From: a virus
Strand: one strand, 5' to 3'
Virus record (IMG/VR): IMGVR_UViG_3300038832_000020
Location: 1-21,804 of that record
DNA: 21,804 nt
The translations under genes and the position numbers were made by a program. Below are positions 4,136 to 21,330 of this stretch, one piece after another. The notes beneath the pieces were generated by a model. The model saw only the letters and a program-made list of their open reading frames with translations, had not been told where the DNA came from and did not search any database. Each line of letters begins with the position of its first letter. The stretch's first letter is position 1.

Positions 4136-4591
4136 ATGAAGAGATTCCTTGAATTCATATCCGAGAACTGGACTGAAGCGACACCCGATCAACAGCGGTG
4201 GGCATCGAAGAAATTCGTGTATCATATCACGACCCCTGAGCGTGCCGAAAAGATCAAGAAAACAGGGTTAAAACCATCAAAAAAATCTAAAGGTAAGTTT
4301 GGTGCCAAGAGTGATTACAAACGGAGAACTACAGAGCCAAGAGCGTTTGTTACGAGTAGTAGGGCATTAGATTACTGGACTGGTGCCGTTGCTCAGGCTC
4401 TTAATGTTGGTGAAGAGGGAATAACGGTTCTTAAGTATCCCGTTCAAAATATACCCAAAAATATTCGTCGAAAAATGGAACTTGATGACGATGGATCTAG
4501 GGATGCAATGCCTCTGCGTGCTAAAACACGATTAAGACCCGCATATGAGATAACAAGAACTCTTGGTGGCAAGAGAAGGAGAAAAAAGTAA
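4136..4591 (+). CDS. ADP-ribosyltransferase-like protein with capsid-targeting leader
   Basis: This is a 151-aa protein. The N-terminus MKRFLEFISE closely resembles the T4 capsid-targeting leader MKTYQEFIAE; a gp21-type cut would fall after I8-S9-E10. The body begins FVYHITTPERAEKIKKTGLK (27-46), with His30/Thr32 and the I-x2-x-GL pattern typical of ART-fold proteins (DarT, RNA 2'-phosphotransferase, small ADP-ribosyltransferase toxins). Next comes RAFVTSSRALDYWTGAVAQA (69-88), matching the second ART motif strand-helix, and a late PAYEIT with Glu138 as a candidate third motif. It would transfer ADP-ribose from NAD to a host target; which target cannot be read. T4 Alt is a known head-packaged ART, which makes the combination credible. 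The tail GGKRRRKK is strongly basic. No Shine-Dalgarno is visible. The stop overlaps the next start by one base. Confidence 0.68.
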   Translation: MKRFLEFISENWTEATPDQQRWASKKFVYHITTPERAEKIKKTGLKPSKKSKGKFGAKSDYKRRTTEPRAFVTSSRALDYWTGAVAQALNVGEEGITVLKYPVQNIPKNIRRKMELDDDGSRDAMPLRAKTRLRPAYEITRTLGGKRRRKK

Positions 4592-4980
4592 TGGCAGATT
4601 TTAATCACGATATTCCAGAAGAGTATCTAGATGACAGTTTTGATTTTGGATTCACCGCAGCGGACGATGGTGATCTGAACGAACTTCTTGAACTTGATGC
4701 TTCTAAGACAACCCCCGATGAGATTGCAGCGATCAAGAGTCAACTCGATTTGATTCTTGAAATGAACTCGACTTGCGAGGGTGCAAACCAAGTCAAAGCA
4801 CAATATGACGAACTTCTCAAAGCCAAACTTCTTGAGATCGAGCGTGCCGTTGTTCCCTTGCTTTTGAACCTGAAGAAGAACAAAGCCAAGGACTACATAC
4901 ACTGGCCTGGCAAACAACGGGAAGCCCAGTGTGATCTTCAGATTCAAAAAGTTCTAGGAATGACAAGAAGCGGATTATGA
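4591..4980 (+). CDS. Conserved T4-like phage protein of unknown function
   Basis: This is a 129-aa acidic protein. The first 45 residues are rich in Asp/Glu (IPEEYLDDSFDFGF, DDGDLNELLELD). The C-terminal half is helical with EIERAVVPLLLNLKKNKAKD and YIHWPGKQREAQCDLQIQKVL. The pattern EIExxixPLLxNLxKNpxKdYIxWPxR...qixKiLxxTR is one I recognise from many T4-like marine phages, annotated only as hypothetical. Start and stop are locked into the operon: TAATG with the gene before and ATGA with the gene after. Conservation beside the nucleotidyltransferase gene hints at a shared late role, but nothing more can be said. Confidence 0.72.
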   Translation: MADFNHDIPEEYLDDSFDFGFTAADDGDLNELLELDASKTTPDEIAAIKSQLDLILEMNSTCEGANQVKAQYDELLKAKLLEIERAVVPLLLNLKKNKAKDYIHWPGKQREAQCDLQIQKVLGMTRSGL

Positions 4981-7619
4981 AGTTTAGAGATTTCTCACTT
5001 GCAGAAGAAAAGAACGACACTGCCGTCATGACATTCGGTAGGTTCCAGCCTATCACATCGGCACACGAAACTCTCATCAAGCAAGTTGGAAGTCTGGCAA
5101 AAGAGAAAGGGGCACATCCCTTTGTTTTCACCAGCCGAAAAAGCGGTGACAAAAAGAATCCTTTAGATTTTAATACAAAGTCCGATATGCTCCGAAAGCA
5201 CTATGGAGTCAACGTTCCCGACTCGGAAGAAATCAACAATCCATTTCAAGCGGCACAACATTTAGGCAAACTCGGATACAAAAATGTTCACTTGGTGCTT
5301 GGTGGTGATCGTGTCAAAGACATCGGTGGCATGATTAAGAAATACATGGGACACGAGGATCCAGAGAAAAGAATCAACATATCAAACCTGACTTTGCACT
5401 CCGCAGGTGAGCGTGATGCAAACCCAGTCTCAGGCACCGCTGTAAGAGCAGCAGCACGCTCAGGCAACGTCAAGGAGTTTCAGCGAATGATTGCCCCCTC
5501 TCTCGGTAAGGAGTCCACAGAGACGATCTACAGGGTGTTACGGGGAGAGCAGCAATTAGGTGAATCACTGGACAAACCATTCCCTACAACATATAAAACA
5601 AGAACAATTTCTGGTCGTAAGCGTCACTATTATAATTTTGAAGTGACACCAAGGAAGCCCGAAAGCAAAATTGATAAACTTTCAGATCCCAAAAAAGGCA
5701 CAATAGAGTTTCTTCCGGCTGTTGATGCGTCAGGAAATCCTACTAAGAAGGGACATGTTGAATTGTCTTTTGATATAGATGGTGACATGCATACAACTGG
5801 AGGAGGAAGTGCAGGAGGAGTCTTCTCCACGGTCAAAAGTGCTGTTAAAGATTTTATGAAAAATAATCCAGATACAAAGGTTCTTAAGGCTAACATAATG
5901 CCCGGTGATCAGTATAAGAGAGATTTGGATGACAATGTAGTTACAGACAAAGACGGAAAACCTGTTTTTAGTGGAAGAGCAAAACTTTACAAGCGTCTTG
6001 GAAATTATTTCGGCAAAGAATATGGATTTGATGTTGATGTTGATATGGATGGAGGATACTTTAAGGCAACACGAAAAATAGATGAATCGCTGGATAAACC
6101 ATTCCCTATAACATATAGATCGAAAGAAAAGTTGGATGGTGGTAAGCGACATTATTTTGATTTTGAAGTGCCACCAATTGACACTAAAAGCAGACTTCCT
6201 CAACTTTCAAAACCCACGAAAGGTAAAGTTGAATTTAATCCGAGCCGACTGTCCAGTCGTGAAGCGGCTAAGAAAGGACATTATGAGGTATCTTTTGATG
6301 TGGGTGGTGAAACCAAGACAACTGGAAAAGGTAACGCAGGAAGAATTTTATCAACGGTCAAAAGTGCTGTTAAACAGTTTATGAAAATGAAGCCAGATGC
6401 AAAGAGTTTTAATGCTATCATAATAGACAGTGATCAGTTTAAGAAAGATTCGGATGGCAATATCGTAAAAGACAAAGACGGAAAATTCATTCCTAGTGGA
6501 AGAGCAAAACTTTACAAGCGTCTTGCAAATCATTTTGCCAAAGAATATGGATTTGATGTTGATATTAACATGAAGCAAGGACGCTTTAGGGGAACACGAA
6601 AAGGAGAAACCCCAGTTGACACAAGTAGTAGTATTCCGGCTAACTTGAGACCTTCCTCCGCATTTGCTGAATCACTGGACAATCCCTTTCCCACGACATA
6701 TACGAAAGACAGATTGTATGGTGACATAGAGCATCACTATGGTTTTGAAATTCCAGCAGAGGGGGAGCAAAAAAAAGTTAAGAAGGGCAAAGTAATGTTT
6801 TCTCAGGCATTCGGCAGGGGACGAGGACATTACGATTTAGCATTTGATGTGGATGATCAAAGCACCCCGACTGGAGCAGGAAACACAACAAAAATTTTCT
6901 CAACGGTTTTAAGTGCTGTTGATCAACACATGAAAAAATATCCAAAAACAAAGGGTATTGAGGCTCTCATACCGGCGGATCTAGAGCATAAGAGAGATGA
7001 TCGAACTGGGGAAATTATCAGAGATGAAAGCGGAAAACCTGTTCGGAGCGGAAGATCAAAACTTTACACAAGACTTGCAAACCAATTGGGCAAAAAATAT
7101 GGATTTGATGTTGAAGTTGATGCCGACGGAGGGGGATTCAGGGGGACAAGAAAAAAAGCCCCCAAATTGGCTGAAGAGGTAAAGAGGGATCCAAACAGAA
7201 CAGGACCAAGAACTGGTCTTGGATCGACTAAGTTCATCGGTGTTCCAGATCCAAAGACTGGTAAGATTAAAATTAGACATGTCTTTGCAAATGAACCTTT
7301 ACCAGATGATATTAAAAAGGCATTACAAAAAGAAGAAGCAAACCCAAGAATCCCACGGAAAGAAGGTCAACCCGCAAAATCCAAAAAGCATTCCGATCTC
7401 TACACCGACGAGGATCCAAAAGGCACAATCCACGGTCTTGGCTTCAAGAATGCCTCAGTTGCAAGAGCATCTGTGAAAAAGATCGAGTCGTCGAGCAGAT
7501 CCCATGCACATAAAATACAAGCCGCTGTTGCGATGGAGCAGCGAGCAAGAGTAGCAAATAAAGATGCTGCTGCTGCAATTTACAGAAGATATATTGACAG
7601 AAACAAAAAATCAAAGTAA
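4977..7619 (+). CDS. Putative packaged polyprotein: nucleotidyltransferase plus three repeats
   Basis: This is an 880-aa protein. Residues 1-10 (MKFRDFSLAE) look like a capsid-targeting leader. Residues about 14-180 form a nucleotidyltransferase-like domain of the NMN/cytidylyl type: GRFQPITSAH (21-30, the HIGH-like motif), GGDR (109-112) and VSGTAVR (151-157, the ISGTxxR-like motif). Three tandem repeats follow (197-370, 371-565, 566-733). Each starts SLD(K/N)PFP(T/I)TY and contains a TG-x-G-N/S turn, a (F/L)STVxSAV helix, then SGRxKLYxRLxN and KEYGFDV or its equivalent. The end (734-880) has KKHSDLYTDEDPKGTIHGLG and HAHKIQAAVAMEQRARVA, conserved in marine phages. Each border is preceded by a gp21-like (L/I/F)xE: LGE196, IDE370, FAE565, LAE733. 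Adenylyl or cytidylyl transfer activity and cleavage are inferred. Its start overlaps the upstream stop (ATGA). Confidence 0.82.
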   Translation: MKFRDFSLAEEKNDTAVMTFGRFQPITSAHETLIKQVGSLAKEKGAHPFVFTSRKSGDKKNPLDFNTKSDMLRKHYGVNVPDSEEINNPFQAAQHLGKLGYKNVHLVLGGDRVKDIGGMIKKYMGHEDPEKRINISNLTLHSAGERDANPVSGTAVRAAARSGNVKEFQRMIAPSLGKESTETIYRVLRGEQQLGESLDKPFPTTYKTRTISGRKRHYYNFEVTPRKPESKIDKLSDPKKGTIEFLPAVDASGNPTKKGHVELSFDIDGDMHTTGGGSAGGVFSTVKSAVKDFMKNNPDTKVLKANIMPGDQYKRDLDDNVVTDKDGKPVFSGRAKLYKRLGNYFGKEYGFDVDVDMDGGYFKATRKIDESLDKPFPITYRSKEKLDGGKRHYFDFEVPPIDTKSRLPQLSKPTKGKVEFNPSRLSSREAAKKGHYEVSFDVGGETKTTGKGNAGRILSTVKSAVKQFMKMKPDAKSFNAIIIDSDQFKKDSDGNIVKDKDGKFIPSGRAKLYKRLANHFAKEYGFDVDINMKQGRFRGTRKGETPVDTSSSIPANLRPSSAFAESLDNPFPTTYTKDRLYGDIEHHYGFEIPAEGEQKKVKKGKVMFSQAFGRGRGHYDLAFDVDDQSTPTGAGNTTKIFSTVLSAVDQHMKKYPKTKGIEALIPADLEHKRDDRTGEIIRDESGKPVRSGRSKLYTRLANQLGKKYGFDVEVDADGGGFRGTRKKAPKLAEEVKRDPNRTGPRTGLGSTKFIGVPDPKTGKIKIRHVFANEPLPDDIKKALQKEEANPRIPRKEGQPAKSKKHSDLYTDEDPKGTIHGLGFKNASVARASVKKIESSSRSHAHKIQAAVAMEQRARVANKDAAAAIYRRYIDRNKKSK
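5565..7175 (+). repeat. Three tandem repeat modules inside the 880-aa protein
   Basis: Units run 5565-6086 (174 aa), 6087-6671 (195 aa) and 6672-7175 (168 aa). Units 1 and 2 are close even at DNA level: 5970-6000 and 6495-6525 are the same 31 bases, and GGTCAAAAGTGCTGTTAAA occurs in both. Unit 3 is more diverged. The middle unit carries an extra proline/serine-rich linker at its end. This suggests two duplications, the last one recent or homogenised by recombination. Confidence 0.88.
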
Positions 7620-7628
7620 ACTATTACC

Positions 7629-7958
7629 ATGAATGGAAAGCATCTTCTAGTTAACGGTAAGGATGTAAGTGCAGATGTCGATGACGAATCTCTGTGGAGA
7701 GAAGTCTTCGACAAAACTGTTAGCACAACCAAGACAACTAAAATGCGTGACTTCGATCTTGTCAAGTTTCCAGAAAAAGGTGTGACGGCTTTTCTTGTTC
7801 TTGGTGAGTCTCACATCTCTGTTCACACATACCCCGAAGATAACGCTTACTACTTCGATGTTTTTTCTTGCAAAGATTTTAATGTGACAAAGGTTGTTCG
7901 GATTCTTTTGGACACGTTTGGAAATCACGACATGGAGTATGAGTTTTTACAGCGATGA
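7629..7958 (+). CDS. speD: S-adenosylmethionine decarboxylase proenzyme
   Basis: This is a 109-aa protein of the short bacterial type. It opens GKHLLVNG, and carries the processing motif LGESHISVHTYPE (58-70): cleavage between E60 and S61 would give the alpha chain with its pyruvoyl group from S61. H66 and C81 (DVFSCKDF) match the family's processing/proton-donor residues. The enzyme decarboxylates S-adenosylmethionine to provide the aminopropyl donor for spermidine. The start at MNGKHLL fits the family length although no strong Shine-Dalgarno is visible. The stop overlaps the next gene's start by four bases. It is the first gene of a three-gene polyamine cassette (SpeD, SpeD paralogue, SpeE). 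Confidence 0.93.
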   Translation: MNGKHLLVNGKDVSADVDDESLWREVFDKTVSTTKTTKMRDFDLVKFPEKGVTAFLVLGESHISVHTYPEDNAYYFDVFSCKDFNVTKVVRILLDTFGNHDMEYEFLQR

Positions 7959-8338
7959 ACTATGTGAGCAAGAAACAATTTTTGGGGAGAGAAACATGGG
8001 GACTTTCTACCTGTGTGGATCTATACAATTGCAATTACCGAATCAAGCACGCTGACGAGATCGAGCGATATGTTGTGGAACTCTGTGACTTGATCGGCAT
8101 GAAAAGATTCGGTCCATGTAACGTCATTCACTTTGGAGAGGATCCGAAGGTGGAGGGGTTCTCCATGACGCAGTTGATCGAAACGTCTTTGATCTCCGGT
8201 CACTTTGCAAATAAAACATGGACAGCGTATTTGGATATCTTTAGTTGCAAGTGGTATGATCAAAGAGTGGTCGAAGCATTTAGCAAAGAATTTTTTGGAG
8301 CAGATAAATCTGAATGTAAGGTGAATATTCGGCAATGA
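7955..8338 (+). CDS. SpeD-like paralogue with altered processing site
   Basis: This 127-aa protein shares the fold pattern of SpeD: WGLSTCVDLYNC, an I-x2-YVVELCDLIGM helix, then QLIETSLISGHFANKTWTAY and LDIFSCKWYD. Lining up with SpeD, LGESHISVH corresponds to IETSLISGH: Ser78 is kept in the place of the pyruvoyl serine, but the preceding Glu is Thr77 and the following His is Leu79. The Cys in DIFSC (C98) is kept. It could be a second subunit for SpeD, or a pyruvoyl enzyme with a new substrate; SpeD homologues acting on arginine or ornithine have been reported from bacteria and phages. It overlaps speD and speE by four bases each, so equal synthesis of the three is likely. Confidence 0.82.
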   Translation: MNYVSKKQFLGRETWGLSTCVDLYNCNYRIKHADEIERYVVELCDLIGMKRFGPCNVIHFGEDPKVEGFSMTQLIETSLISGHFANKTWTAYLDIFSCKWYDQRVVEAFSKEFFGADKSECKVNIRQ

Positions 8339-9180
8339 AAATTACAGATAGTTGGGATGAGGCACTTGGAAGAACGATTTCAATTGACGGTGAGTTAATC
8401 AAAGAGGTTCAGTCCAAATACCAAAACATTAAAGTCTATGATACAAAGTCTTTTGGTAAACTTTTGCAACTCGATGGTGTGATTCAACTCACCGAGTTTG
8501 ACGAAGCAAACTACCATGAGATGTTCGCACATGTTCCCTTGACATCACATGAAAAACCAGAGCGTGTTCTGGTGATCGGTGGTGGTGACGGTGGCATTGT
8601 TCGTGAGGTTGCAAAGCACAAGAATGTTACAAAGATTGATTTGGTCGAGATCGACGAAGAGGTTATCAAAATCTCTGACGAATACTTTCCGAACATCTCA
8701 TCTGGCTTCAGAGATCCTAGAGTAACGATTCATTTCGACGATGGTGCAGAATACATTGAGAACTTAGAGTTTCAGTATGATGTTATTCTCATTGATTCGA
8801 CCGATCCGTTTAGTGTGGGTGCGTCTTTGTTCACAGAAAAATTTTATGAACAACTCACTCAAGCGATTCGTGAACACGGAATGATTGTGTCTCAGTCTGA
8901 AAGCATGTTCTACAATGCGGACATGATTTCTGACATGAAGAAATTTAAGACTAAATACTTTGGATCTGTTAAGTATTATTACACTATGGTTCCGACATAT
9001 CCTTCGGGAACAATCGGTTTTCAAATTTGCTCTGATGGTCATTATAGCCCGTTCCACCCAAATGGAAATTACCGACACGGAACTCTAGGATATGATTTGG
9101 GTGATCTCAAGTATTACAATGCTGGGATTCACGTTGGAAGTTTTCTTTTACCGAATGGGGTTAAACAATGGCACACATGA
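8335..9180 (+). CDS. speE: Spermidine synthase
   Basis: This 281-aa protein is of usual bacterial SpeE length. Visible motifs are SKYQNIKVYDT (27-37), EANYHEMFAHVPL (57-69), VLVIGGGDGGIVREV (78-92, donor-binding loop), LVEIDEEVI (103-111), DDGAEYI (135-141) and YDVILIDSTDPFSVGASLF (148-166, with the catalytic Asp and the TDP variant of SSDP). Near the end, PTYPSGTIGFQICSDG matches the family's PTYPxGxxGF. It transfers aminopropyl from decarboxylated AdoMet to a diamine, normally putrescine. Together with speD it gives the phage its own last steps of spermidine synthesis. It overlaps the SpeD paralogue as ATGA and the next gene by 13 bases. Confidence 0.95.
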   Translation: MKITDSWDEALGRTISIDGELIKEVQSKYQNIKVYDTKSFGKLLQLDGVIQLTEFDEANYHEMFAHVPLTSHEKPERVLVIGGGDGGIVREVAKHKNVTKIDLVEIDEEVIKISDEYFPNISSGFRDPRVTIHFDDGAEYIENLEFQYDVILIDSTDPFSVGASLFTEKFYEQLTQAIREHGMIVSQSESMFYNADMISDMKKFKTKYFGSVKYYYTMVPTYPSGTIGFQICSDGHYSPFHPNGNYRHGTLGYDLGDLKYYNAGIHVGSFLLPNGVKQWHT

Positions 9181-11235: not shown

Positions 11236-11468
11236 ACCAATACCGATTACACATTGATATTCCACTTGGCACGAACGAGGAAGAGGCAAAGAAGATTGCT
11301 CGCAACTTTGTTCAGTCTCACCTTGACTTCACAAACACTTCTAGCGATGGTGTCAAAGAAGTAAACTACCGACTCGGACACGATGAGGATCGGCAGAAAT
11401 CAAACTATCTCGACATCAACGAAAACGGTCACTGTAGTAATAAAAAACTTCGCATCAATTATGCGTGA
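11232..11468 (+). CDS. Small phage protein, unknown
   Basis: A 78-aa protein beginning MNQYRLHIDIPLGTNEEEAK, with KIARNFVQSHLDFTN then VNYRLGHDEDRQKSNYLDIN. The start is set at the ATG that overlaps the previous stop as ATGA; an upstream in-frame extension lies within that gene and is Lys-rich noise. The pattern beta-loop-helix-beta with YRLGxDxDR-x-x-NYLxxNE is one I have seen in T4-like phage hypothetical proteins, with no function known. It overlaps the next gene by eight bases. Confidence 0.6.
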   Translation: MNQYRLHIDIPLGTNEEEAKKIARNFVQSHLDFTNTSSDGVKEVNYRLGHDEDRQKSNYLDINENGHCSNKKLRINYA

Positions 11469-11859
11469 CACAAACAAATGGAATAAAGAAAACCCAGAAC
11501 TAAAGAAGCGATTCGATAGGGACTGGAACTACCGAAGAAAATTCGGTGCTTCAATGATGGAGCAGTTTGGTGTTGAAGGAATCGAGGGGTATGAATTTCT
11601 TTGTGAACGTCAAAACCACACCTGTCCATTGTGTAAGAAAACGGAAGAAGAGATTCTTCACGAAGCAGCAGAGAACAGAAAGCGAAAAGGACTTGCACCA
11701 GTGAAGTATTCGATGCCAGCATTTGTTCATGATCATTGTCACAAAACAAATAAGGTTCGAGGGTTGATTTGTTCAGGATGTAATACTATGATTGGTGGAT
11801 ATGAAAACGCAATTTCACAACTTGGAGAGGAAACTCTCAGAGATTATTTGAATGATTGA
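11461..11859 (+). CDS. Endonuclease VII-like HNH nuclease
   Basis: A 132-aa protein with the recombination endonuclease VII signature. C55-x2-C58 (HTCPLC) and C104-x2-C107 (GLICSGCN) would bind the structural zinc. FVHDHCHKTNKVRGLIC (88-104) holds the D91-H92 catalytic pair, and N108 completes the His-Asn finger. The N-terminal 45 residues (KKRFDRDWNYRRKFG) are basic and helical. The T4 enzyme gp49 resolves branched DNA during packaging and is 157 aa; here its C-terminal dimer part is largely absent, so this may be a stand-alone HNH nuclease of the same family, or a homing-type enzyme. The start is the ATG at 11461, overlapping the gene before by eight bases. Confidence 0.83.
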   Translation: MRDTNKWNKENPELKKRFDRDWNYRRKFGASMMEQFGVEGIEGYEFLCERQNHTCPLCKKTEEEILHEAAENRKRKGLAPVKYSMPAFVHDHCHKTNKVRGLICSGCNTMIGGYENAISQLGEETLRDYLND

Positions 11860-12551: not shown

Positions 12552-12578
12552 AAAGGGAGCCTTTTGGCTCCCTTTTTT
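12552..12578 (+). terminator. Rho-independent terminator
   Basis: AAAGGGAGCC (12552-12561), loop TTTT, GGCTCCCTTT (12566-12575), ending in a run of six T on the plus strand. It ends the plus-strand gene at 12191. The minus-strand gene has its stop at 12577-12579, so the hairpin also lies just within its 3' end. On that strand the T-run is interrupted (TTTCTTACTTT), hence weaker. Confidence 0.9.
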
Positions 12579-15207
12579 AGTAGGAATATCCTCCACCACC
12601 CGATGAAGGTGGGGCCCCACCCGATGAAGGTGACGGTGGTGGACTTGTAGAGAAAGAAGGATCCTCAGTTCTACAGTGTATAGCGTACGCATCTATCACA
12701 AGTGGGTTGGAACGACATGAACTTTTTACATTATCACAGTAAGGACTTTCACTTGGCTTGCGATCTGGATAATGTTTTATCCAACACTGATGTTTTTTCA
12801 ATTGTGTGTCACATTCTACATTAACATTACTACCTTTTGGTGGAAGAGGAGAATTTGAAACACACTCCGTACACTCTTGGAAAGAATTCGTTGAGTTTGC
12901 ACATTCTCTTGGATCATATGAAGCAACATTCACCGTTAATCTTGAGTCTTCGAGTTCTGGTGGTGCTTCAGTGAGATAGTAATTTTCATCACCATCTCTA
13001 GTTCTCATGTCGAGTGGTTTGGTGTATTGTATGACAGGCTCTTCGGGTTTGGTTGGTGTTAAAGTTGAACCAACTTGAAGAACAAAAACGTTTGGATCGT
13101 TCGGATCGTAATCACCTAAAATATCATCTGGATCATCATCTGGTCCATACAGAACAAGAACAGGATTATTTGTTTCGATGTTGGTGAAGAAACTACATGG
13201 CTGAGGAACTGCGTCACATTTATAGAAACAGTTTCCGCAACCAGAGCAATATGGAACAGGGGTACATCTACCACCATCAATATTACATTGGAGCCACTTT
13301 GGTTTTTTGTCACACTTCCAATAGTAGTTTGCCCCACCCGTGGGATCTACCTTGTGTTTGTGGTTGTTCACTCCCAACTGAAGACACATTTTTTGTAACT
13401 CTTTTCTAGTTTTGTTGTCTGGAGTTGCAGAGGGATATGTTGTGCCTTCACAGAAACAACTTTTAAATTGTGGATCATTCCATCCACCTGCCCATGCAGG
13501 GGAAAGTGCCTGCTTACAAAAAGTTGACTCCTTACCATCTCTACCGATTGCATCCGGTCCATTTCCAGAACATCCAGAGAGTCCTCTATATCCTTTTTCC
13601 CACGGATCTATGCTGCATTGATAGTCGTCTTTTTGTCTGTTCCACATTGTCCATAAAGCACACTCACGGCACTTAAAAGATTCAATACCTGCTTCTGCAA
13701 ACATTAAACACTTACAGCATTTCATTTGCTCATCGACCCATTTAAGGAATTTGTCTTTTGGTGAGAATGGAGGTCTTTCTTCATCTGTTGGTGGTAGACA
13801 CTCTCTGGTTCCAGTCGGTAAATCGCTGGGCAGGGTTGTCTCCATGGCAATTGGAATAGAATTATCAGTAACATTCAATGTTTTTGTTGTCGTGTTTCCA
13901 ATGAAAACTATTTTTGCATTTTCTCGACCGGGACGACCAAAATGTGAAACACCTATGATAAGAGGTCTATTTTGACCTTCGGGTATAAGTGAGATGTCTG
14001 CTCCTATCATTGAAGGATCCGATATATCGAGTCTATATCTTTGTGTTGCTTGAACGGTTATCTGTGTCGATGTTCTATCATTTAGAATAAGTTGTCCATT
14101 GACTTTTTTAACAACAATATCCTCAAAGAAATAATCAAGATTTGCAATTGATGTTTGTGTTGATGATTTTGGCTGTTGTAATTGTATCTGTCTGGTTTCA
14201 TTTTGTCTTTGAATTGGTGGATCAATGTCTTCTAAGTTTTCATCGGGTATAGTTGCAACACTGAAAGTTTTTGGACATTTAGGACACGAATTCCCATTAA
14301 AAGGTGCCGATATTAATCCCTCGGTTGTTCCTTCAATGAAAGTGTAGTTTAAATTTTCTCTTCTTGATTTTGCAAGACCGTAAAATTCAAAACCATTTTC
14401 ACATTCGACAAGTTGACCGCTTTCAATATACGATGATGTTGTGGGGTTAAATGCTGCCGACTTTGCGTAAAAACAATTAGTTCCCGGCTTTGGTGATCCC
14501 TCGGTTGATTGTTTAAAGACGGAGAGTGTAACGGGACTTCCCACTAAATCTAAATCTGGAACAGGACGATTTAATTTAAGAATTTCTGTTCCGTCATTTT
14601 CAACGACAATTGATTTTACTTCATACAAACGATCTTTCGATATGTTGGTGTTTCCGGCAGAAATTTTTATGAAGTCGCCGGGAACGATCCCTGACCGTGA
14701 GAATGACTCAGATGAGTTTACACCGAGGTGGTTTATTACTTGATATTCTTCGGAAGTTTCTGGTGGGAGAGTTATACCAATGAAAGGAACTTTATTAAAA
14801 AAGTTTGATCTGTAAACTTTAACATCTGGACTAAATGTTATCCCTGTGGGTGTTGCTTTTATTTTATGATCACCCACTAAATTTTTGAACGAATAACTGC
14901 CATTGAAATCCGCTCTAACATCTCTAATTTTATCATCGTAATTTGCGTTCGATATTGTAAAAGACGCTCCTGTTTTTTTCGATTGAAAAATTGTTGTGAG
15001 TTCTTCAAGATCAGCAGGATTGTTTGTGGACGAATAATCAATAATAATATCACTACCCGAAACTATAAAGTTTGGGGTGGCACTTATTTGCCTTCTGTCG
15101 AATCTATTAAGATCAGATGTAGTGAATTCGAGTCCATAGAAAGAGTCAGTCGAATATCTTTGAAGTTTCGACTTCCTTTTCGGTGACTCTCTTCGCTCTT
15201 TATCCAT
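12577..15207 (-). CDS. Large cysteine-rich virion structural protein (putative)
   Basis: An 876-aa protein. About residues 1-320 are beta-rich (SATPNFIVSGSDIIIDYSST, then ISNANYDDKIRDVRADFNGS) like a fibre or baseplate-attached protein. The segment 340-490 is another beta-rich domain. Residues about 495-850 are strikingly Cys-rich (KCCKC, KCREC, SCFC, YCSGCGNC, ECTEC), with about 32 Cys in total. The end is a Ser/Pro/Gly tail, SPPPSPSSGGAPPSSGGGGY. No signal peptide is seen. It is cotranscribed with the 441-aa protein upstream (one base between them). I expect a tail or adsorption-related virion protein; Cys clusters may bind metal or form disulphides outside the cell. I recognise no family. 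Confidence 0.72.
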   Translation of the reverse strand: MDKERRESPKRKSKLQRYSTDSFYGLEFTTSDLNRFDRRQISATPNFIVSGSDIIIDYSSTNNPADLEELTTIFQSKKTGASFTISNANYDDKIRDVRADFNGSYSFKNLVGDHKIKATPTGITFSPDVKVYRSNFFNKVPFIGITLPPETSEEYQVINHLGVNSSESFSRSGIVPGDFIKISAGNTNISKDRLYEVKSIVVENDGTEILKLNRPVPDLDLVGSPVTLSVFKQSTEGSPKPGTNCFYAKSAAFNPTTSSYIESGQLVECENGFEFYGLAKSRRENLNYTFIEGTTEGLISAPFNGNSCPKCPKTFSVATIPDENLEDIDPPIQRQNETRQIQLQQPKSSTQTSIANLDYFFEDIVVKKVNGQLILNDRTSTQITVQATQRYRLDISDPSMIGADISLIPEGQNRPLIIGVSHFGRPGRENAKIVFIGNTTTKTLNVTDNSIPIAMETTLPSDLPTGTRECLPPTDEERPPFSPKDKFLKWVDEQMKCCKCLMFAEAGIESFKCRECALWTMWNRQKDDYQCSIDPWEKGYRGLSGCSGNGPDAIGRDGKESTFCKQALSPAWAGGWNDPQFKSCFCEGTTYPSATPDNKTRKELQKMCLQLGVNNHKHKVDPTGGANYYWKCDKKPKWLQCNIDGGRCTPVPYCSGCGNCFYKCDAVPQPCSFFTNIETNNPVLVLYGPDDDPDDILGDYDPNDPNVFVLQVGSTLTPTKPEEPVIQYTKPLDMRTRDGDENYYLTEAPPELEDSRLTVNVASYDPRECANSTNSFQECTECVSNSPLPPKGSNVNVECDTQLKKHQCWIKHYPDRKPSESPYCDNVKSSCRSNPLVIDAYAIHCRTEDPSFSTSPPPSPSSGGAPPSSGGGGYSY

Positions 15208-16886: not shown

Positions 16887-17768
16887 ATGAGTTTTAAAGA
16901 CATGAAAAGAAAGTCTGTCGGTAGCATCAGCGAACTGACAAAGAAATTAGAGAGTGCTGAGAAGAAAAATTCTTATCAGGATGATCGCTTCTGGAAACCA
17001 ACACTTGACAAGGCAAGCAACGGCATGGCTGTTTTTCGGTTCCTTCCAGCACCGGAAAATGAAGATATGCCTTGGGCAAAACTTTACACCCATGCGTTCA
17101 AGGTTGGTGGTCGCTGGTATATCGAAAACTCTCGCACCACGATTGGTGAAAAGGATCCAGTTTCAGAGATGAACTCAGAACTCTGGAACAGCGGTCTTGA
17201 ATCCGACAAGGACATCGCTAGGGATCGTAAGCGTAAGTTGTCTTACATCTCAAACATCCTTGTTCTAAAGGATCCTGGCGCACCTGAGAACGAGGGCAAA
17301 GTGTTCCTCTACAAGTATGGTGTGAAAATCTTCAACAAGATTCAGGAAGCAATGCAGCCTGAGTTTGATGACGAAGATCCTATCAACCCATTTGATTACT
17401 GGGCTGGTGCGAACTTCAAGTTGAAGGTTCGTAAGGTTGGTGGTTACATCAACTATGACAAGTCTGAGTTTGAGTCACCTTCCGAGTTGCTCGGTGGTGA
17501 TGATGGTAAACTTGAAGAGTTGTGGAAAACACAGCACTCTCTTCAAGCGTTCGTTGCTCCAGATCAGTTCAAGACTTATGATGAATTGAAGAAGAAGTTG
17601 CAAGAGGTTGTCGGTGACGATATCCGTGCGACGGAATCTGACTTCGTGAGTCAAAAGACTGTCGAGGATGTAGTTGTGGAGGAGACGGTATCCTCGGACA
17701 GCGGAGAGACAGAGGGTGAGGAGACTGACGCTTTGTCATACTTCCAGAGTCTGGGTAACGAAGACTGA
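16887..17768 (+). CDS. 32: gp32 single-stranded DNA-binding protein
   Basis: A 293-aa protein (T4: 301 aa). The basic N-terminus MSFKDMKRKSVGSISELTKK is the cooperativity part. The OB-fold core shows FRFLPAPENEDMPWAKLYTH (residues about 50-69), SYISNILVLKDPGAPENEGK (119-138), VFLYKYGVKIFNKI and WAGANFKLKVRKVGGYINYD (172-191), all closely parallel to T4. The C-terminus is acidic and ends TDALSYFQSLGNED, like the T4 tail that recruits replication proteins. T4 holds zinc by one His and three Cys; this protein contains no Cys at all, and GGRWYIENSRTTIGEKDP stands in that region. It coats single strands in replication, recombination and repair. It is likely read from the gp33 promoters. Confidence 0.96.
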   Translation: MSFKDMKRKSVGSISELTKKLESAEKKNSYQDDRFWKPTLDKASNGMAVFRFLPAPENEDMPWAKLYTHAFKVGGRWYIENSRTTIGEKDPVSEMNSELWNSGLESDKDIARDRKRKLSYISNILVLKDPGAPENEGKVFLYKYGVKIFNKIQEAMQPEFDDEDPINPFDYWAGANFKLKVRKVGGYINYDKSEFESPSELLGGDDGKLEELWKTQHSLQAFVAPDQFKTYDELKKKLQEVVGDDIRATESDFVSQKTVEDVVVEETVSSDSGETEGEETDALSYFQSLGNED

Positions 17769-19435: not shown

Positions 19436-19613
19436 TGTTTCTCTCTCTAATTCGTTGGTTTTCTTTATCTACATGTTGCCTTATCAATTCTATGTAGATT
19501 TCTCTTTCCCAAGGCATGAGAGATTCTAATTCAGTGATGCTCATTTTAAAGTGTATTATTAAATCAGAATTTGTCTTTATCATCGAGGTTATGTTTTCGT
19601 GACAAAGACTCAT
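19410..19613 (-). CDS. gp51-like baseplate hub assembly protein (by position)
   Basis: A 67-aa protein with MSITELESLMPWEREIYIEL (24-43), then IRQHVDKENQRIRERN. The MPWEREIY...LL/IRxxxxxEN pattern occurs in small proteins between gp26 and the hub/tape-measure genes of T4-like marine phages and is usually labelled baseplate hub assembly catalyst gp51, although T4 gp51 is much longer (about 250 aa). It may be a tape-measure chaperone in function. Its start overlaps gp26's stop (ATGA), and its end overlaps the next gene by 26 bases. Confidence 0.6.
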   Translation of the reverse strand: MSLCHENITSMIKTNSDLIIHFKMSITELESLMPWEREIYIELIRQHVDKENQRIRERNNAGRNTII

Positions 19614-20305
19614 CCGAAAAAATCAAGCATACCTTCCAATCTTAACTTTCTTTCAACTCCGTCTTTTGTTCTATACTCAACCACTTTGTAAACATATGGT
19701 TGTTCTGTAATAAAATTACATAGTTTGTCATATTGTGCGTGAGTGAGGTTTTCAATAAACTCGGTTTTTTCGTCTTCGGAAATATCAGAGCCATCAAAAA
19801 CTTCTTCATTCAATGTTATCGTGTTAATACATCTCGAAATTAAAGAATCGGTTGCATTTTTATTATCAATATTCATATAATCATACACGGTCGGAGATTT
19901 CATTTTTATGGTCATCTCATCGTTGATTTTTACCACATCTTTAACATCAGACTTATAAATGTCGAGATCGGTTAGATTGATGCCAACCCTCACCGATTCA
20001 TCTGTCACTGGACAAGTAAAAATAGGCTCTGCCGTTTCCGAAACCGACTTTGCTCGAATTTGGCAAAACAAATATTCTAAGTCGACCATTGGAATTTTAT
20101 ATGCACTCTTCACATCATCAACACAACTTTCAACAATGTTTGCGATTGCATTGAGAACTGTCGAGTCATCGTCATTGTCTTTTGCCATTAAAAGAATTTT
20201 TTCCTCTTTCACAAGAAACGGTCTAAAGAATGTTTCTTTTCCCGTTGATGGAATTGTTGTTCTATATTTTGGTAAGGATGACTGTAAATGATCTAAAAGT
20301 CTCAT
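19610..20305 (-). CDS. 26: gp26-like baseplate hub subunit
   Basis: A 231-aa protein (T4 gp26: 208 aa). ETFFRPFLVKEEKILLMAKD (24-43) is the family hallmark, followed by a helix IANIVESCVDDVKSAYKIP and EYLFCQIRAKSVSETAEPIF (78-97). A pattern CPVT-x-E (102-107) replaces a metal-like strand seen in relatives. The C-terminal half is helical. In T4 it takes part in building the central hub, on which the baseplate wedges assemble. GGAG lies before the ATG. It overlaps the gp51-like gene and follows the tail-tube-like gene after 12 bases. Confidence 0.83.
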   Translation of the reverse strand: MRLLDHLQSSLPKYRTTIPSTGKETFFRPFLVKEEKILLMAKDNDDDSTVLNAIANIVESCVDDVKSAYKIPMVDLEYLFCQIRAKSVSETAEPIFTCPVTDESVRVGINLTDLDIYKSDVKDVVKINDEMTIKMKSPTVYDYMNIDNKNATDSLISRCINTITLNEEVFDGSDISEDEKTEFIENLTHAQYDKLCNFITEQPYVYKVVEYRTKDGVERKLRLEGMLDFFG

Positions 20306-20317
20306 AATTTCTCCATA

Positions 20318-20899
20318 TTAATCTTTGGGGGATTGTTTTGTAGTATATTCCTTAAATCCAATTGTAACATTCAATGTAGCGACTTGGTTTATTTGATCGG
20401 CAGAGTACGACTCTTGAATGATTGATGTTGGATATGGTTCAATTAATTCAAGTCTCCATTTTCTGTTTTCGTTCATGTCCATAAAATCAAGGTTTACCGT
20501 GGAACGTGTGAGTGCAGAATATGATCCGGTTCGCTCAAGAGTGGATGTTCGTCCTGAGCCGGGGGAACTGAGTGGATTATACAAATCTAACCAATCCTCA
20601 AAAAAATTTCGGACACCCCAGTTTTGATCGACCAACAGACCCATTAGAATTGATGGCTCACCACCATAACCTCTTCTGATTGGTATTACTCTTGGATTTG
20701 ATCCTTGTGCTGTTAATTCATCGGGAATCCCGTCTAAACTTCTCCCCGGCAAACTAAAAGTTTGAACAGGCCAGGTTAATACTCCAACATCATCATTTTC
20801 AACGTACACCTCGAAACGAGTCGGACGTTGTAACCCACCACCGATGCTACCTTGTCTGTTAAAAACCAGAGAGCGAAATGTATCAATATCTGATTTCAT
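20318..20899 (-). CDS. Tail-tube-like protein (gp19/gp54 family)
   Basis: A 193-aa protein (T4 gp19: 163 aa). FRSLVFNRQGSIGGGLQRPT (8-27) then RFEVYVENDDVGVLTWPVQT and FSLPGRSLDG give the N-terminal pattern 'RPxxFxVxxxx...xxxxxxLPG' of the tube fold. PSILMGLLVDQNWGVRNFFE followed by DWLDLYNP matches 'xxtxxxxxDxxxxvRxffxxW', and NQVATLNVTIGFKEY ends with a strand as in T4. It is either the tail tube or a baseplate tube-initiator protein; a window-only view cannot decide. The start is ATG 20899 with AAGGA upstream; it overlaps gp4's stop by one base (TGATG), so a longer in-frame reading is rejected. Confidence 0.7.
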   Translation of the reverse strand: MKSDIDTFRSLVFNRQGSIGGGLQRPTRFEVYVENDDVGVLTWPVQTFSLPGRSLDGIPDELTAQGSNPRVIPIRRGYGGEPSILMGLLVDQNWGVRNFFEDWLDLYNPLSSPGSGRTSTLERTGSYSALTRSTVNLDFMDMNENRKWRLELIEPYPTSIIQESYSADQINQVATLNVTIGFKEYTTKQSPKD

Positions 20900-21330
20900 C
20901 AAAATAATTCCTTTTCGGTGAGAATCACAAAAGACCAGTTCCGCTTTTTGCAAAATTCTTTTGCGGCTTCCCATTTTGCCTCATTTACAATATATGTAGT
21001 GCATTCTGAGAGGTATGTTTTTTTTCTTTTTTTACCCTTTTCTGGTGGGATTGTTTGTTTATATGGCTTCACTTCTATGACTTTTGTTCTATGATCTCCA
21101 TTGTTTTCACGAACCTTTACAATAAAATCCGGAAAATAGCGATGTTTTTTATTGTCAAGCGGTGAAATATAGGGAATGATTATCTCCTCACTTCCCCATT
21201 TGACAATATTTTCGTTTGTATCCAAATATTTACAAACCTTTCTTTCCCACAAAGAGCGGCATATTATGTTTGTTGGATCACCTACATATTTAGATTCATT
21301 AATCGGTTTATACTTTGTTTTGTAAGCCAT
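20899..21330 (-). CDS. 4: gp4-like head completion protein (TnsA-like nuclease fold)
   Basis: A 143-aa protein (T4 gp4: 150 aa). YKPINESKYVGDPTNIICRS (7-26), LWERKVCKYLD, then WGSEEIIIPYISPLDNKKHR (45-64) and YFPDFIVKV are near-textbook for the T4 head completion family. The PD-(D/E)XK core is D68...E86-V-K88, with E29 as the likely first acidic residue. The end AKWEAAKEFCKKRNWSFVIL followed by TEKEL fits the TnsA-like helix-strand close. In T4 it is needed to finish packaged heads before tail joining, perhaps by trimming DNA ends. No Shine-Dalgarno is seen; a CATAAATA box lies four bases before the ATG. Confidence 0.9.
   Translation of the reverse strand: MAYKTKYKPINESKYVGDPTNIICRSLWERKVCKYLDTNENIVKWGSEEIIIPYISPLDNKKHRYFPDFIVKVRENNGDHRTKVIEVKPYKQTIPPEKGKKRKKTYLSECTTYIVNEAKWEAAKEFCKKRNWSFVILTEKELF

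Follow-up and report, generated by a model that had tools for sequence, protein, structure and literature searches.

A cysteine-rich, SleB-like domain in a putative modular tail protein of a T4-like phage

The locus and its surroundings

The gene considered here, P1, lies on the minus strand of the window (the whole stretch of viral DNA that was analyzed, 21,804 nucleotides) at 12577–15207, with its ATG at 15207 and its stop codon at 12577–12579; the plus strand opposite carries stop codons throughout. The first-pass annotation, which left the strand unstated, had described an 876-residue protein with about 32 cysteines, and the reading of the open frame bears this out: the product has 876 residues and exactly 32 cysteines (3.7% overall), 27 of which fall within residues 497–845, in the CC, CxC, and CxxC clusters that had been placed mostly in residues 495–850. 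The cysteine share of other proteins of the window is 0.2% (P2), 0% (gp32), 2.2% (gp26), and 2.8% (gp4).

The surroundings of P1 are a T4-like structural region. Directly upstream, on the same strand, lies a partner gene, P2 (15209–16534, 441 residues), of which we collected 59 loci, and the P1 ATG begins 2 bases past the P2 TGA. The window also encodes a gp32 single-stranded DNA-binding protein (16887–17768, plus strand; PHROG 224, E 3.8e-115; Pfam gp32, E 1.8e-47), a gp26-like baseplate hub protein (19610–20305, minus strand; PHROG 150, E 5.5e-52; Pfam T4_baseplate, E 2.8e-51), and a gp4-like head closure protein (20899–21330, minus strand; PHROG 218, E 1.7e-57), with baseplate wedge families farther along the same record, which at 44.8 kb is shorter than a complete T4-like genome.

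The whole of P1 has no PHROG or Pfam match at the limits used, and direct searches of 50,697 phage records with P1 and P2 returned no match, for P1 even at E 10; a chassis relative and the i-type-lysozyme-like domain described below likewise had no match in that set. Used as a query, P1 retrieves near copies only. Because a related contig (L002/L003) carries nearly the same protein (89–93%) and the cysteine-rich core recurs in more distant contigs at 38–51% identity, P1 is not a chance frame. It looks like a modular tail or baseplate structural protein of a marine-type, T4-like phage, and the earlier description as a virion-type protein is supported in part, by the baseplate gene neighborhood.

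Some other features of the window deserve mention. An Endonuclease VII-type protein (Pfam E 2.3e-13) is encoded at 11383–11859, near the 3′ end of P1. An 880-residue protein at 4977–7619 has a cytidylyltransferase-like N terminus (Pfam E 2.8e-5, above the cut-off); it also contains internal repeats, and DUF6934 matches one stretch of it. Genes at 7629–9180 resemble those for SAM decarboxylase and spermidine synthase, a possible polyamine pathway; the frame at 8335–9180 has no PHROGs match. Unread bases occur at about 21801–21812 of the record, at the window's end, and the frame that follows translates with X residues.

Chassis and mobile modules

We gathered relatives of P1 through an alignment of its neighbor P2, which gave the 59 P2 loci. 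The first 235 residues of P1 (14503–15207, minus strand) form a cysteine-free, beta-rich region that we call the chassis; an iterated profile matched it in 56 open reading frames (the window, near-duplicates, and fragments counted), and dozens of contigs from T4-like phages have it directly behind P2. The sequence that follows it varies widely among relatives, with total cysteine numbers from 0 to 58. In the AlphaFold2 model the chassis has pLDDT values of about 80–96 over most of its length. Weak structural resemblances to small beta domains of tail proteins such as T5 pb9 (Z 6.0), to tail spikes, and to other proteins were set aside, as values of Z ≤7.3 are common background. By sequence, the chassis matched none of the proteins that fill this slot in phages S-T4 and P-SSM4.

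Behind the chassis, P1 is a series of smaller units on the minus strand. Residues 236–330 (14218–14502) form a small module with four cysteines (245, 269, 308, and 311), matched in 14 open reading frames and with all four cysteines kept in the window, L002, L090, L098, and L101. Residues 355–455 (13843–14145) form a beta domain, apparently of cupredoxin type and devoid of the Cys-His-Met ligands: profile positions 332–461 of P1 align to residues 390–530 of the L117 protein, a domain that bears the motif CxxHxGMG, from which we take the name cupredoxin. PHROG tail-fiber families match the CxxHxGMG-type domain in L117 and L126.

Toward the C terminus, module M (residues 761–853; 12649–12927) contains eight cysteines and is mobile between virion genes. 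A stretch 95% identical to it occurs in a different protein of L004, and it is absent from L002, whose protein is otherwise 89% identical to P1, so module M has moved recently; it is also present in L090. Since a look-alike, recognized by eye, adjoins the lysozyme-like domain in L179, which it precedes, module M is possibly wall-binding. In L004, two genes before the gene that shares module M, a baseplate-type protein (4355–6208) has a cysteine-rich insert of its own. P1 closes with the Ser/Pro/Gly tail already noted in the first pass (residues 854–876; 12580–12648), which ends GGGGYSY; similar endings are found in the enzyme-bearing proteins of L002, L090, L095, L098, L126, and L130, and not in those of L117 and L102.

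The cysteine-rich core and its slot

Residues 470–671 (13195–13800, minus strand), which we refer to as the core, have 20 cysteines in about 205 residues (9.8%). A first set of nine open reading frames, the window included, matched residues 486–680, and later scans added homologues in L150, L151, L154, L164, and L165. The contexts differ: in L150 and L164 the core sits on the chassis, in L154 on small cysteine repeats that we call GACC-type, and in L165 it stands alone. The core is optional, most chassis homologues being without it and having 0–16 cysteines.

By sequence, the core looks distantly related to SleB, a lytic enzyme of the spore cortex. The best Pfam match to it is PF07486 (Hydrolase_2, SleB; E 0.051), and with 14.6 bits against a curated cut-off of 27, a threshold that is missed everywhere, it would be a distant SleB relative rather than a PF07486 member. 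Half of the core members examined (4/8) are matched by Hydrolase_2 at E ≤1; the sole PF07486 match in the window's own record falls inside the P1 core (13288–13470, E 7.1e-4), and of 20 related records just one, that of L002, is matched at E ≤1. Profile comparison with hhalign, using eight core homologues against the SleB-like proteins of nine phage records plus one typed Bacillus subtilis sequence, gave a probability of 97.3, a score of 71.1, and a P of 2.4e-11; 200 column shuffles reached scores of at most 20.0 and probabilities of at most 2.5. Raising the core set to ten sequences gave a probability of 97.2, dropping the typed SleB sequence gave 97.1, and P2 as a decoy gave 0.0. The alignment pairs Glu505 of P1 with the Glu of YxEARGE, Asn523-Arg524 with NR, and Asp621–Tyr628 with the DPTGGA-type stretch, and Glu505 (codon 13693–13695, minus strand), the presumed catalytic residue, Asn523-Arg524, and Asp621-Pro622 are invariant in 10/10 core sequences. 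Against the PDB, the core profile reached SleB only at E 1.1, and a seven-sequence profile did not find it; a pattern-based search of a bacterial and archaeal genome collection, a weak negative, returned no relative of either the core or the i-type-lysozyme-like domain.

The predicted fold points in the same direction. We modeled full-length P1 with AlphaFold2 on an alignment (A6) of 34 sequences, none of them a SleB, and obtained pLDDT values of 75–93 over most of residues 484–670, whereas the core alone, with seven sequences, gave an unusable model (pLDDT 38.7). Foldseek against viral models returned two SleB proteins (probability 1.00; E 1.9e-3 and 9.0e-3; TM normalized to the target 0.51 and 0.53). 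Against the PDB it returned no row at E ≤1e-3, and SleB emerges only on re-alignment of the candidates: VIA-align then places SleB 4fet first (Z 10.0, 120/122 residues, rmsd 3.1) and SleB 4f55 second (Z 9.5), followed by a row at 7.3. Because a best Z of 7–8 is typical background, we use only the two SleB rows, and the core, as a predicted model, adopts a SleB-like fold. The first-pass annotation had suggested an adsorption domain of no specified kind; profile comparison and predicted fold replace this with a SleB-like, peptidoglycan-lytic type of domain.

The position that the core occupies on the chassis is an exchangeable enzyme slot, filled by a SleB-like domain, by an i-type-lysozyme-like domain, or by neither. 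In L095/L109 (58 cysteines), L117 (49 cysteines), and L177, the same chassis carries a different cysteine-rich domain that is i-type-lysozyme-like, and in L125, L126, and L130 such a domain is encoded in the gene after the chassis gene. A profile of four sequences of this domain matches 8bbu (E 1.9e-9), 2dqa (1.3e-5), 3ab6 (5.8e-5), and 4pj2 (8.1e-5) in the PDB, all of which we take to be invertebrate-type (i-type) lysozymes. On this domain the Pfam Destabilase model does not reach its cut-off (at best 15.2 of 26.2 bits); it matches 0/4 of the members and is found in 1/20 records at E ≤1. A final scan found the domain at 12 loci, among them L177, whose protein runs from the chassis through GACC modules, a cupredoxin-type motif, and the lysozyme-like domain to a Gly/Tyr-rich end. 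P1 shares its slot with these relatives of the i-type lysozymes and destabilase but does not itself contain their domain, which scores a probability of 0.2 against the core in hhalign. In many chassis proteins, for example those of L131 and L112, no enzyme is seen. A further 825-residue protein, at 5185–7659 of L173, has 84 cysteines and an i-type-lysozyme-like domain inside.

A SleB-like fold need not be an enzyme, and the core could instead be a pseudo-enzyme with a structural or wall-binding role, or could bind a receptor, in line with the first-pass suggestion. It is only 17–18% identical to active SleB enzymes, and modules do shift among these tail proteins, as such a reading would allow; yet Glu505, NR, and the DP..GANY motif are invariant in 10/10 sequences, and the alternative lysozyme-like occupants of the slot also carry an invariant Glu. 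We regard a core of this inactive kind as unlikely.

The cysteines and a proposed function

The first-pass annotation had made its reading depend on conservation of the cysteines in homologues. They are conserved: cysteine occupies 12 core columns in 10/10 relatives and 3 more in 9/10, although the core itself is optional. Counted from the equivalent of Cys470, the ten sequences have 20, 20, 18, 16, 20, 20, 20, 14, 20, and 18 cysteines, an even number in 10/10, and the differences come in twos. L102 and L154 each lack Cys516 together with Cys654; Cys531 and Cys546 occur only in the window, L002, and L090; L150/L164 have an extra pair and L165 two extra cysteines (508 and 600); and L154 has lost both 632 and 641, and has lost 660 and gained 555. 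The pairing had been noted in the first eight sequences before L164 and L165 came to light, and both agree with it. For whole proteins, the raw total is even in 17/28 (the cysteine-bearing among 30 proteins taken). All seven proteins with a CxxHxGMG-type motif have odd totals, and setting aside one motif cysteine in each, a post hoc adjustment, raises the count to 24/28. Four further proteins of the group have 26, 32, 84, and 53 cysteines, the last with one CxxHxGMG-type motif. As the sequences share ancestry and their counts are not independent, parity is support rather than proof.

Metal clusters and disulfides formed after release had both been offered as explanations. Because the core cysteines are even in number and are gained and lost in pairs, disulfides fit better, and the core cysteines probably form them outside the reducing cytosol. 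That they are instead metal ligands, with the core folding in the cytosol as a zinc- or iron-sulfur-rich domain for structure or binding, strikes us as quite unlikely. The CxxC pairs 497/500, 513/516, and 654/657 do have zinc-ribbon-like spacing, the FLYWCH zinc finger matches weakly (E 0.15), and the cupredoxin-type Cys-His-Met motifs of the same phage group suggest that metal is bound nearby. However, the joint losses of 516/654 and of 632/641 would leave four-ligand sites incomplete, L102 and L154 do not retain CxxC 513/516 (the remaining invariant cysteines could bind metal), the invariant residues of the core include no His, and by fold the core matches SleB, an enzyme that is not known to have a metal cluster.

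We therefore favor, as the likely function, an exchangeable, disulfide-stabilized, tail-borne peptidoglycan-cutting domain of SleB type. The chassis, judging by the position of its gene, would dock P1 in the virion, and when the tail reaches the wall the divergent SleB-type core would cut host peptidoglycan during entry, with Glu505 probably serving as catalytic acid. About ten disulfides could form among the 20 core cysteines, only once the particle leaves the reducing cytosol after lysis, and would keep the small enzyme intact outside the cell. In other lineages the i-type-lysozyme-like domain would take the slot, either attached to this chassis or encoded by the following gene, or the slot would stay empty. 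An endolysin that ends the infection by lysing the host is very improbable: many phages have SleB-like proteins whose annotation reads endolysin or cell wall hydrolase, and the core of L165 stands alone, but P1 starts 2 bases after P2 within a baseplate gene cluster, has a 235-residue chassis that enzyme-free versions retain, and shows no N-terminal hydrophobic stretch. A bolder extension of the favored reading, which we find possible but doubtful, is an oxidation safety catch: at least two unrelated families of tail wall-cutters (SleB-like and animal-type lysozyme) would replace one another on a single chassis, doing no harm as unfolded proteins in the reducing cytosol and maturing through at least ten disulfides only after release.

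Tail-borne wall-cutting enzymes are already known in phages, T4 gp5 being an example of a virion-associated peptidoglycan hydrolase. P1 resembles these in having a lytic-type domain on a structural protein encoded in a baseplate gene cluster; it differs in a chassis unmatched in the S-T4 and P-SSM4 slot proteins and in an enzyme part that is optional and exchangeable. From SleB/Hydrolase_2 (PF07486; 4fet, 4f55), with which it shares the predicted fold and the Glu, NR, and DPTGGA-type motifs, the core family differs in its 14–20 cysteines, its insertions, and its score below the Pfam cut-off. Agrobacterium phage Milano has a disulfide-linked contractile-tail virion whose structural proteins are 2.1% cysteine (PMC10811340). 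P1 would share with Milano disulfides in a contractile-tail virion with cysteine-enriched structural proteins. It differs in having 3.7% cysteine overall and about 10% in the lytic-type domain; the Milano bonds are largely between tube, sheath, and baseplate subunits (PMC10811340), whereas those of P1 would be mostly within a domain. Destabilase domains appear among predicted phage lysins in PhaLP 2.0, possibly through wrong annotation (PMC13237592). Among the listed results of literature searches on cysteine-rich or disulfide phage tails, SleB virion enzymes, cyanophage cysteine-rich proteins, and phage i-type lysozymes, we did not find the arrangement described: SleB-like phage enzymes and disulfide-rich virions are known separately, and a cysteine-rich SleB variant that swaps with an i-type-lysozyme-like domain was not found in print.

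An odd cysteine composition thus becomes a testable function, and even, paired cysteines in tail modules are a suggested sign of lytic domains missed by standard family models. P1 would be a further case for how a virus that assembles in a reducing cytosol makes disulfide-rich proteins. Through the slot, animal-type lysozymes would have relatives in the tails of phages, and cysteine-armored enzymes of this kind might be naturally robust wall-cutters.

Cysteine-rich modules are not confined to a single tail protein in the window's phage, since a 1,235-residue collagen-like, tail-fiber-like protein farther along the window's record (41128–44832, the same as L167 7829–11533) has 32 cysteines and GACC-type modules. 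Giant proteins made partly of GACC-type repeats are encoded on the minus strand of three other contigs, namely L009 (3–4748; 1,582 residues, 186 cysteines), L013 (591–4757; 1,389 residues, 156 cysteines), and L010 (2075–5026; 984 residues, 95 cysteines), and the gp26 proteins of these contigs are among the nearest to that of the window.
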